A DNA stretch of 64,000 nucleotides. It comes from Thermomonas haemolytica. GTDB lineage: Bacteria; Pseudomonadota; Gammaproteobacteria; Xanthomonadales; Xanthomonadaceae. How positions within the stretch are numbered: position 1 is the first letter of the stretch; every line of letters starts with the position of its first letter. The notes beneath the pieces are model-generated. The model saw only the letters and a program-made list of their open reading frames with translations. It did not search any database and was not told where the DNA came from. Positions 44,571 to 48,597 of the stretch are shown here, piece after piece. The stretch spans positions 596,110-660,109 of the forward strand of contig NZ_SMAP01000001.1 in NCBI RefSeq assembly GCF_004346265.1. Direction: 5' to 3'. Position numbers and translations under genes: made by a program.

Positions 44571-45116
44571 ATGGACGAACACGACGCCCGCCTGCCACGC
44601 GACGATGCGCTCGCCCATCGCCTGCGCCAACACTGGGATGCCGCCACCCCGCGCGTGGACCAGCGCGAAGCCTGGCGGCGGTTGCAGGCCCAGCTCCCCC
44701 CCGCTCCGGCGGCCCGGAAGCGGCCGCGCCTGGCCGAGCGCCTGGCCGAATGGCGGTCCTGGTGGCTGCCGACGCTGAGCTTCGCCAGTGGCGCCGCCTG
44801 CGCGGCGCTGGCGTTGGCTCTGCTGGCACCGATGACGCTCTCGCCTGCCCGCGCGCCAGCGGCGTTCGAGCCGCTGGCGGGCCCGGCCGCAACGACGCCC
44901 GCGGCGGGTACGCGCCTTGCGGTGGCCTTTGCCGCGGATGCACGCCTGGCCGACATCAACACCCTGCTGCTGCAACTGCAGGCCAGCGTGGTGCAGGGGC
45001 CGAGCGCGCTCGGGCTGTACACCCTGGAAGTGGCGCCGGACATGGCCGAGCAGGCACTGCAACGCCTGCAAAGCAGCCCGCTGGTGGACAGTGCGACCCT
45101 GGCCCCGGCGTCGTGA
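44571..45116 (+). CDS. Putative membrane anti-sigma factor with protease-pro-region-like domain
   Basis: A 181-aa protein: a charged cytoplasmic N-terminus (residues 1-63), one transmembrane helix (about 65-90), an Ala/Pro linker, and a periplasmic domain (114-181). The topology, size and position after an ECF sigma gene fit an anti-sigma factor, although no ZAS motif is seen. The C-terminal domain (TRLAVAFAADARLADINTLL ... GLYTLEV ... ALQRLQSSP) resembles residues 88-157 of the downstream protease. An in-frame TTG at 44535, overlapping the sigma stop, is an alternative start; the ATG is chosen as standard. Confidence 0.75.
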   Translation: MDEHDARLPRDDALAHRLRQHWDAATPRVDQREAWRRLQAQLPPAPAARKRPRLAERLAEWRSWWLPTLSFASGAACAALALALLAPMTLSPARAPAAFEPLAGPAATTPAAGTRLAVAFAADARLADINTLLLQLQASVVQGPSALGLYTLEVAPDMAEQALQRLQSSPLVDSATLAPAS

Positions 45117-45123
45117 GCGCGCC

Positions 45124-46470
45124 ATGATGCCTCGCCAGCGGCCTGCCATTGCGCGGTTTTCAGCATGGCTGCTGGCGCTGGCCAGTCTGCCGGCACTGGC
45201 GCAGACCACCCCCGGCACGCCGCCCAAGCCCCCTGCGCCGCCTCCCGTCCAGCAGCCCACGGACGCAGGCCGCAGCCACAGCAGCGCCGTCGGCGTTGGC
45301 GTGGGCATGCAGATCGATCTGAATCAGGTGCTCCGGCTCGGTCGCCGCCTGTTCGATGCGCCATCACCGCCACCCGCCTACGCTCCGGGGCGGGCGCTGC
45401 TGGCGTTCGCGGCTGACGGCGGGCTGGACCCGGCCCAACTGGCAGCAGAGGCAGGGTTGCAACTGGTGGAAAGCACCTCCCTGGAAGCGCTGGGCCTGGT
45501 GGTGGCCGAACTGCAGGGCGCGCCCGACACCCTGCCCGAGGCACTGCAGCGGCTGCGTGCAGCGCATCCTGACGTCACCGTGGATCTGGCCCCGCTGTGG
45601 CGCCCGCAAACGGTGGCCGCCCCGGCTGCGAATCCGGCGCCGCTGCCGGGCCAACATCCCGGCCGGCTGTATGCCGCCGCGCTGCTGGGAGTCCAGGCAG
45701 CGCAGCCGCTCGCCCGCCCGGTGCGGGTAGCCCTCATCGATGGCGCGGTGGATCCGGCCATCGGCCTGGAACTGGCCGGCTTCAGCCAGGCCCGCTTCGG
45801 CAACGGCGGCGATCCCGGCCAGCATGGCACCAGCGTGGCCTGCCTGCTGGCCTGCCAGAGACGCGGCACGTCGCAACCGGGCTTCTTCGGCCTCAGCCCC
45901 GGGGTGATGCTGCTGAACGCCGCCGTGCTCGGCACGGATGCGCGCGGCCAGGCGCAGGCGCGCGCACTGGATGTCCTGCGCGGCCTGGATTGGGCCTTGC
46001 GGCAGAACGCCGAGGTGATCAATGTCAGCCTGGGCGCCGCCCCGGATGCCGTGACGGCCCGCGCTTTCACGCTGGCACAGGCGAAAGTGGCGGCACTCAT
46101 CGCGGCGGCCGGCAACGGCGGCCCGCAGGGCGGGCTGACATATCCTGCCGCTTTGCCGGGCGTGATCGCGGTCGCCGCCGTGGATGCCCAACGCCGCCCC
46201 TACCGCGACGGCACCCGCGGCAGCTGGATCAGCATCGCCGCGCCCGGCGTCGAGGTCTGGGTGCCTGCACTCGATGTCTCGGGCGGCCGCTATCTGACCG
46301 GCACCTCGTTCGCCGCCCCGTTCGTCACCGCCTGGGCCGCGCAACGGCTGGCGCGCGGCCTGCCGGCAACGGCGGCCGTGCTGTGCGCGCAGGCCATCGA
46401 CCTGCCACCGGCCGGACGCGACCCGCAGACGGGCTGCGGCCTGTTGCGCTGGCAACCAGACGCGCCCTGA
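45124..46470 (+). CDS. Secreted S8 (subtilisin-like) serine peptidase
   Basis: A 448-aa protein with a signal peptide (residues 1-27), a Pro-rich linker, an N-terminal pro-region-like domain (88-157) and a subtilase domain. The triad is Asp206 (ALIDGAVD), His234 (GQHGTSVA) and Ser395 (GTSFAAPFV), with the oxyanion Asn331 in AAGNGG, so it looks active. The catalytic core is compact and Cys pairs occur near residues 240-245. It lies 7 bp after the putative anti-sigma gene. Role: probably cleaves a protein in the periplasm or outside, possibly the anti-sigma factor itself. Confidence 0.9.
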   Translation: MMPRQRPAIARFSAWLLALASLPALAQTTPGTPPKPPAPPPVQQPTDAGRSHSSAVGVGVGMQIDLNQVLRLGRRLFDAPSPPPAYAPGRALLAFAADGGLDPAQLAAEAGLQLVESTSLEALGLVVAELQGAPDTLPEALQRLRAAHPDVTVDLAPLWRPQTVAAPAANPAPLPGQHPGRLYAAALLGVQAAQPLARPVRVALIDGAVDPAIGLELAGFSQARFGNGGDPGQHGTSVACLLACQRRGTSQPGFFGLSPGVMLLNAAVLGTDARGQAQARALDVLRGLDWALRQNAEVINVSLGAAPDAVTARAFTLAQAKVAALIAAAGNGGPQGGLTYPAALPGVIAVAAVDAQRRPYRDGTRGSWISIAAPGVEVWVPALDVSGGRYLTGTSFAAPFVTAWAAQRLARGLPATAAVLCAQAIDLPPAGRDPQTGCGLLRWQPDAP

Positions 46471-46896: not shown

Positions 46897-47535
46897 ATGG
46901 ATCTGCTTGCCCGCCGCCACTACCTGCCGTTCTCCGTTCTGCTGGGTCTTGCGTCCCTCGCCCCGGCCCAGGCGCACCCGTCTTCCGTCGGGCAGGAGCA
47001 GGCCGCGCAAGCCACGCCTGCATCGCCAATCTCCGCGCGCCATCAAAAACAATGGCTGCCTTCGAATTTCAGACTGCAGCAGTCCACACCAGGCGCCTCC
47101 GGCAACGCGGCCGGCACCATGGGGCCGGCCAGCCGGCAACCCGCGCCGGTGGATGCCATCGCCGCCGGCGCCAAGCTCACCAAGGCCGACGCGGCGCGGA
47201 GGAAAAATTCAGCCAGCGTAGGTCTTGGAGATCATCGCGATGCAGACAGCCAGGCGACGCGGATGCAAACGCCAGCGCCGGCGCCGGCCGATGCAGCGCA
47301 GCTGCGCGGGATCGAGAAAAAGGACATCCGCCGCGGCATGGTCATCGCAAAACCCGGCTCGATCACGCCGCACACCCGCGAAGCTGATGCAAACCGCCCC
47401 TGCCCGCCGCTGTGTGGGGAGCAGATCGCGCCCGGGATGGCCACCGACCCCCTCACGGGCAAGCAGACGGCACCTGCCCAGCCGCTCAAAACCAAGCATG
47501 ACACCGTCAAGAACTCGATCAGCAACATCCGCTGA
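46897..47535 (+). CDS. Secreted protein of the ECF/subtilase cluster, unknown function
   Basis: A 212-aa protein with a signal peptide (residues 1-25, FSVLLGLASLAPAQAH). The mature part is hydrophilic, rich in Ala, Pro, Lys and Thr, and looks mostly disordered. Near the C-terminus, ANRPCPPLCGEQIAPGM carries a Cys-Pro-Pro-x-Cys unit similar to ICPPYCGSNG in the next gene. An AAGGAG site precedes the ATG at 46897. I do not recognise the family. It is probably a target or co-product of the sigma/subtilase system. Confidence 0.75.
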   Translation: MDLLARRHYLPFSVLLGLASLAPAQAHPSSVGQEQAAQATPASPISARHQKQWLPSNFRLQQSTPGASGNAAGTMGPASRQPAPVDAIAAGAKLTKADAARRKNSASVGLGDHRDADSQATRMQTPAPAPADAAQLRGIEKKDIRRGMVIAKPGSITPHTREADANRPCPPLCGEQIAPGMATDPLTGKQTAPAQPLKTKHDTVKNSISNIR

Positions 47536-47646: not shown

Positions 47647-48597
47647 ATGTCCAGAACATTCCATCTTCCGCTGCTGCTCGTCCTGGGCTCGCTCAGCCTG
47701 GGTCTGGCCCACGCGCAAAGCACTGACAATGGGCAATCCAGCGCACAGCGCATCACCATCAAGCAGCCCAGCAGCAATGAGAAATGGTGCAAGCCGTGGC
47801 CGGATTGCAGGTATAACCCCGATAATCGCCGCACGCTGCCGCCGCAGGCGCCGGGAAATGCCGCGCCCGGCCTCCCGCGCCAGCCGGGCATGCAGGACGA
47901 TCCGCCCCCGCCGCCGCACCCGGTCGACCCCCTGCCGCCCAAGCCGCGCAGCGTCGGTGGCGCGGTCGAACTGCCCACCGCACCGCATCTGCCGCGTGAT
48001 CCCGGCATGGGCAATGGCCAGATGCCGCGTGATCCCGGCATGGGCAATGGCCAGATGCCGCGCGACCCGGGCATGGGCAATGGCCAGATGCCGCCGGCAC
48101 CGCGGCCGCTGCCCAAGCCCGGCGTCGGCAATGGCGGCATCATCCCGAACCCGGGCGGCAACCCGGTGGAACCGGCCCTGCCTTGTCCTCCCGGCTACGT
48201 GGTCGTCCACCTGAAGAACGGCCAGACCAGTTGCGCGAAGCCCACGCCGACCAATCCAACGCCGCCCGCCGCGACGGCCAAGCAGGCCGCCTCCGGGCAG
48301 GATCACGTGCAGATCTGCCCGCCCTACTGTGGCAGCAACGGCCCGCAGGCGACGGACAAGCAAGACAAGCCCGGACGGCCGGTACTGATCAACCGTCCTG
48401 AAGCGCCCAAGCCGATCGAGGATCGCCTGGCGCGTCCGAATGGCCCTGGCAGTGAACAGGTTGCGATTCCGGTCAAGTCGGCCGATGGCAGCACGGCCAA
48501 GCGCAGCGCCGGCCCGACGATCAGCAAATGCCCGGCGGGCTGGCACTGGGTGTCATTCAAGGGTCACTGCGAGCGCGACGGCACCCAGACGCAGTGA
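47647..48597 (+). CDS. Secreted proline-rich protein with 11-aa repeats
   Basis: A 316-aa protein with a signal peptide (residues 1-24, PLLLVLGSLSLGLAHAQ). The middle is Pro/Gly-rich and has three tandem RDPGMGNGQMP units (47992-48090). Cysteine motifs WCKPWPDC, CPPGYVVVHLKNGQTSC, ICPPYC and KCPAGWHWVSFKGHC are spread along it, the first and last looking like small disulfide modules. The Cys-Pro-Pro-x-Cys unit is shared with the preceding gene. The family is unknown to me; it could be a surface or matrix protein processed by the subtilase. The start at 47647 follows AAGGAACTTGCC. Confidence 0.78.
   Translation: MSRTFHLPLLLVLGSLSLGLAHAQSTDNGQSSAQRITIKQPSSNEKWCKPWPDCRYNPDNRRTLPPQAPGNAAPGLPRQPGMQDDPPPPPHPVDPLPPKPRSVGGAVELPTAPHLPRDPGMGNGQMPRDPGMGNGQMPRDPGMGNGQMPPAPRPLPKPGVGNGGIIPNPGGNPVEPALPCPPGYVVVHLKNGQTSCAKPTPTNPTPPAATAKQAASGQDHVQICPPYCGSNGPQATDKQDKPGRPVLINRPEAPKPIEDRLARPNGPGSEQVAIPVKSADGSTAKRSAGPTISKCPAGWHWVSFKGHCERDGTQTQ
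47992..48090 (+). repeat. Three tandem 33-bp coding repeats
   Basis: Units at 47992-48024, 48025-48057 and 48058-48090 each encode an 11-aa Pro-Arg-Asp-Pro-Gly-Met-Gly-Asn-Gly-Gln-Met segment. Units 1 and 2 are identical in DNA, and unit 3 differs by silent changes. The repeat number may vary between strains. Confidence 0.95.

Follow-up and report, generated by a model that had tools for sequence, protein, structure and literature searches.

We know of no activating signal for most pairs of ECF sigma and anti-sigma factors. Among the exceptions, RsiV of the Bacillus subtilis sigma-V system binds the active-site pocket of lysozyme, inhibits the enzyme, and thereby becomes cleavable (PMC5014341). 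The locus described here resembles RsiV in that its anti-sigma ectodomain may serve as a receptor and appears to be of an enzyme-inhibitor type. It differs in that RsiV recognizes a foreign ligand, lysozyme, through another kind of ectodomain, whereas here the ligand is presumed to be the protease of the neighboring gene, and the ectodomain is a version of the prodomain found in that protease family itself. The RseA/DegS/RseP system (PMC8103513) likewise combines an ECF sigma factor with a one-pass anti-sigma factor bearing a periplasmic domain; site 1 is cut there by a PDZ-containing serine protease of the HtrA family, whereas the candidate at our locus is the operon's S8 subtilase. In ECF54 (PMC8999054), subtilase genes also lie near the ECF sigma gene, as do genes for carboxypeptidase or CHAT neighbors, but proteolytic control of the sigma factor is proposed to proceed without an anti-sigma factor, and the passages on this group mention no shared prodomain. 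Sinorhizobium ECF26/EcfR6, next to which a serine protease gene is found, was considered as a known relative, and we claim no kinship with it.

Prodomain-like domains encoded apart from a protease have a precedent in yeast PBI2 and Pleurotus POIA1, subtilisin inhibitors of family I9 that resemble propeptides but stand alone. The likeness lies in this separate encoding, as judged by description; the I9 inhibitors are soluble, whereas the anti-sigma domain is anchored in the membrane as part of a sigma regulator. Pfam family PF22148, the Fervidolysin N-terminal prodomain-like family, a subtilase prodomain type, normally resides within the S8 proenzyme. Here the same domain, by Pfam score, is found in anti-sigma factors, fused behind a transmembrane helix, as well as in one partner subtilase. 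We found no description of this shared domain in the open papers searched; the gene linkage itself may have been noted in print.

Organization of the locus

The window, a 64,000-nucleotide stretch of Thermomonas haemolytica DNA, carries three genes in succession on one strand: the first encodes an ECF sigma factor, the second a one-pass anti-sigma factor, and the third an S8 subtilase that is intact (Table 1). The sigma and anti-sigma genes are separated by 32 bases, and the stop codon of the latter lies 7 bases ahead of the subtilase start. Of the named relatives found, Thermomonas sp. S9 is the nearest. The gene coordinates, residue ranges, and short strings listed in the preliminary description of this DNA were all correct.

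The sigma factor contains only regions 2 and 4 by Pfam and TIGR02937, which identifies it as an ECF sigma-70 factor. No clear common promoter motif was found upstream of the sigma gene when four Thermomonas loci were compared. The protein encoded by the second gene shares 29% identity with anti-sigma homologues from operons of the same order. A zf-HC2 zinc finger, the mark of zinc-binding class I anti-sigma domains (ASDI), is recognizable in some homologues, and Pfam returned no such match in the window protein. ASDI devoid of the zinc motif do exist (PMC7406223), so that the window protein is assigned its anti-sigma role from synteny and homology. The predicted topology fits that of a substrate of regulated intramembrane proteolysis. 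Close to the predicted helix lies the motif FEPLA, which most homologues keep as [YF]xx[LA][SGTA] and which is a candidate recognition or site-1 region.

The third gene encodes a member of peptidase family S8, with a match to PF00082, the complete triad D206, H234, and S395, and the oxyanion residue N331. It also scores 100 bits against the T7SS mycosin model, below the cut-off of that model. Of the 72 distinct partner subtilase frames, at least 51 have the catalytic residues, and most of the others appear to run off the end of the fetched stretch. In four partner subtilases (L019, L021, L031, and L035), an extra N-terminal stretch that looks IPT/TIG-like by eye precedes the prodomain.

Further genes for secreted-looking proteins lie 3' of the trio. 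An N-terminal string, SAQRITIKQ[PK]SSN, is common to such proteins in both Thermomonas genomes (47647-48597 in the window; L013 5387-5968), and the window protein additionally has three tandem PRDPGMGNGQM repeats. Proteins with this string may be outputs or substrates of the system. Another downstream secreted-looking protein, of 212 residues (46897-47535), matches elongation factor Tu over the 27 residues 135-161 (47299-47379), with E = 4.5e-7 to TIGR00485, far under the model cut-off; the other parts of EF-Tu are absent.

Table 1. Positions in the window of the three genes and of the features assigned to their products
Feature	Coordinates	Strand	Basis
ECF sigma-70 factor, 199 aa	43939..44538	+	Pfam Sigma70_r2 1.1e-12, Sigma70_r4_2 1.3e-14; TIGR02937 5.2e-25
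Anti-sigma factor, 181 aa: residues ~1-67 cytoplasmic, then one TM helix and a C-terminal domain in the periplasm	44571..45116	+	position; homology; hydropathy
Predicted TM helix, residues 68-86	44772..44828	+	maximum 19-residue hydropathy 1.89
Juxtamembrane motif FEPLA, residues 99-103	44865..44879	+	ectodomain alignment
Subtilase-prodomain-like ectodomain, residues 114-181	44910..45113	+	PF22148; profile-profile match to partner subtilase prodomains
GPSALGLY motif	44997..45020	+	ectodomain alignments
Last strand and C-terminal tail, residues 172-181	45084..45113	+	ectodomain alignment
S8 subtilase, 448 aa, signal-peptide-like N-terminus	45124..46470	+	Peptidase_S8 1.9e-20
Subtilase N-terminal prodomain, residues 88-157	45385..45594	+	profile match to anti-sigma ectodomains; partner homologue above PF22148 cut-off
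Catalytic Asp206 (IDGAVD)	45739..45741	+	
Catalytic His234 (QHGTSV)	45823..45825	+	
Oxyanion Asn331 (AAGNGG)	46114..46116	+	
Catalytic Ser395 (TGTSFAA)	46306..46308	+	

Similarity of the ectodomain to subtilase prodomains

The preliminary description had reported an ordered similarity between residues 114-181 of the anti-sigma factor and residues 88-157 of the subtilase. Our local alignment reproduced this order with 24 identities in 59 positions (41%; E = 6e-5 for a single comparison). The score of the anti-sigma domain against the whole subtilase was reached by none of 2000 shuffles, and the score of the two full-length proteins was equaled or exceeded in 4 of 1000. The window pair is an outlier: it scores 77, compared with 40 and 29 for the orthologous Thermomonas pairs and a shuffled mean of 28, which places the orthologues near background. 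The string FAAD, part of the original match, varies on the subtilase side, where the orthologues read FETG, FPVE, and IEAD. The FAAD part of the letter identity was thus local luck, whereas the domain relation behind it is real at the profile level; the earlier reader followed letters that matched in part by accident and so arrived at a relation that holds on other grounds. A recent duplication was considered unlikely, given that the FAAD codons differ between the two genes (TTTGCCGCGGAT versus TTCGCGGCTGAC) and that FAAD is not conserved.

The outlying score of the window pair and the 4 full-length shuffles that equaled or exceeded the full-length score would fit a chance resemblance between two Ala/Leu-rich stretches. 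We regard such a coincidence as very improbable, as PF22148 is found on both sides and a comparison of profiles refutes it. A profile of ectodomains, aligned with a profile of partner subtilase N-terminal regions as the preliminary description had proposed, gave a match in the register it had indicated (P = 5e-5), with 66 aligned columns running from the first strand to the fourth. It scored 29.6, whereas the best of 200 column shuffles reached 13.1, and with all Thermomonas sequences, including those of the window, removed, the match persisted (P = 6.7e-5). No signal came from smaller profiles restricted to the Thermomonas-like group (P = 0.25), nor from the subtilase catalytic domain, used as a control in the profile comparison.

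Pfam searches indicated the family of the domain. Within the window anti-sigma factor, PF22148 covers the ectodomain alone; the match has E = 8.6e-4 and 20.1 bits for the whole protein, 21.5 bits for the trimmed domain, and 21.3 bits in the genome frame, against a gathering cut-off of 21. Thirteen of the 27 ectodomains of the anti-sigma family match it at E ≤ 0.1, the best at 6.6e-6. On the protease side, Pfam gave no PF22148 match in the N-terminal region of the window subtilase, and weak matches were obtained in 4 of 20 partner N-terminal regions; the partner subtilase of L111, from another class-level group, scores 21.8 bits, above the same cut-off. The ectodomain profile alone, moreover, retrieved a true S8 prodomain, belonging to a large protease (L036), with E = 1.6e-4 in its genome. 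A PDB profile search with the ectodomain returned only a chance match, and one with the subtilase N-terminal regions returned chiefly the edge of the catalytic domain. Single-sequence AlphaFold2 models of the two proteins were set aside (mean pLDDT 41.6 and 36.1).

Together, the Pfam and profile comparisons confirm, at the level of sequence, a kinship between the C-terminal ~65 residues of the anti-sigma factor and the N-terminal prodomain of the subtilase. The shared domain that the preliminary description had placed at the pro-region of the subtilase is thereby identified as a subtilase prodomain, probably of the PF22148 type.

Features of the ectodomain

In most aligned copies, the sequence pattern of the ectodomain fits the order strand-helix-strand-strand-helix-strand, followed by a short tail. 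Three residues, G143, P144, and G148 (GPxxxG), are near-invariant among the anti-sigma ectodomains, and the partner subtilase prodomains do not have this motif. From the strand-4 column to the C terminus there are 10 residues in the window protein, with a median of 11 in the set and 13 in the cleaved prosegment of subtilisin BPN' (PDB 1SPB). The end-point is thus close to that of a propeptide after cleavage, and the ectodomain has the look of a completed, already cut propeptide that is tethered to the membrane.

This end-point also agrees with control in the reverse direction, in which the tethered prodomain would inhibit or fold the subtilase at the membrane, so that the anti-sigma factor controls the protease; diversion of the protease to another substrate or inhibitor would then abolish binding and destabilize the anti-sigma factor. 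Subtilase prodomains are established inhibitors and foldases, and RsiV is receptor and inhibitor at once (PMC5014341). The partner subtilases that we examined, however, retain a prodomain-like region of their own at the N terminus, and a second chaperone is not obviously needed. We consider reverse control distinctly unlikely.

Distribution and gene linkage

Among sampled genomes, the ectodomain profile matched 48 of the 295 other species that represent the family (E ≤ 0.01). At the class level it matched 29 of 368 others at the same threshold, the weakest of these being chance matches or other proteins, and at the phylum level 37 of 397 others (E ≤ 0.001) with a search profile that included the transmembrane helix. 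We then counted linkage at loci located by the ectodomain or anti-sigma factor alone, taking as assessable those with a convincing ectodomain and sufficient flanking sequence. An S8 gene adjoins the ectodomain gene in about 68 of 74 such loci (14 of 17 in the class, 29 of 29 in the family, and 25 of 28 in the phylum), and nearly all of the loci also have an ECF sigma gene. Within Thermomonas, the anti-sigma and subtilase genes both occur in the same 4 of 25 species. The trio of sigma factor, anti-sigma factor, and S8 protease spans Alpha- and Gammaproteobacteria; plasmid pR1a of the alphaproteobacterium Sphingomonas sp. R1, for example, is annotated with a sigma-70 factor, a zf-HC2 protein, and an S8 peptidase in that order. 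Since this linkage is conserved across families and classes, the ectodomain and the protease are likely to be functionally linked.

One Thermomonas draft genome (G007; L010 880-1240) has a subtilase gene that stops just past the prodomain, beside a transposase-like sequence at the contig end. The catalytic remainder was not found in this draft, and the sigma and anti-sigma genes are intact.

Several loci depart from the pattern. In G188 and G410, near-complete genomes from a single family, the ectodomain gene lies next to a sigma gene, and the genome has no S8 protease gene anywhere. In three other loci, a caspase-type gene takes the place of the subtilase gene beside the ectodomain (L078 4461-6478, L079 4320-6592, and L104 665-2700), the neighbor being Pfam C14 in the first two and caspase-like by eye in the third. 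Caspase-type proteins are not known to have a prodomain of the PF22148 kind. These genomes and loci, together with the truncated gene of G007, count against a strict version of the protease-docking reading. In the two genomes lacking S8 proteases, the genes for the sigma factor and the prodomain-like anti-sigma factor (L075 in G410, L076 in G188) lie near what appear by eye to be carAB genes.

Such departures would be accommodated if the ectodomain were a generic small alpha/beta sensor, derived from a subtilase prodomain, that had lost subtilase binding, with the protease as a mere sigma target or accessory gene. The restriction of GPxxxG to the anti-sigma side agrees with this, as does the comparison of pairs: similarity within own pairs is only marginally above that to other pairs (250 of 5000 permutations). 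Pair-specific matching is thus not clearly indicated, which also weighs against a strict docking reading. A generic sensor leaves poorly explained, however, why the adjacency is so strong and widespread between just the S8 family and just the PF22148-like ectodomain, and we rate it as rather unlikely.

Proposed mechanism

Of the mechanisms considered for this system, docking of the tethered propeptide-like domain on the protease has the best support. Starting from the identity of the domain, the gene linkage, the preserved catalytic residues, and the point at which the ectodomain ends, we propose that the periplasmic sensor of the anti-sigma factor may be a membrane-tethered copy of a PF22148-type subtilase prodomain. 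The exported subtilase of the next gene, once rid of its own prodomain, would dock on the tethered copy, and docking would tie the state of the protease, its maturation or occupancy, to the anti-sigma factor, with control presumably running in this direction. The docked or recruited protease could then cut the juxtamembrane linker, or bare it to another site-1 protease; intramembrane proteolysis would free the sigma factor, which in turn may raise expression of the operon through autoregulation. To this sequence of docking, anti-sigma cleavage, regulated intramembrane proteolysis, and sigma release we assign about even chances of being correct.

The preliminary description had already suggested that the anti-sigma factor mimics the pro-region and docks in the protease, so that the state of the protease controls sigma release. 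The shared prodomain and the conserved linkage to an adjacent S8 gene lend that suggestion partial support, but the S8-less genomes and the caspase-type neighbors speak against a strict version of it.

The system probably belongs with the receptor-type anti-sigma switches, in a new form. After RsiV, its anti-sigma factor would be the second one apparently built from an enzyme-inhibitor domain, and the adjacency to the subtilase gene points to the protease itself as the likely trigger of the sigma switch. More tentatively, and with somewhat less than even confidence, we suggest that this may be a widespread proteobacterial module, in which a tethered replica of the protease family's prodomain lets the anti-sigma factor monitor a periplasmic subtilase that is self-encoded and dedicated to this role, with sigma release being triggered by maturation or occupancy of that protease. 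A prodomain-like ectodomain beside its protease offers a concrete, testable ligand hypothesis in about one-tenth of the sampled proteobacterial species.
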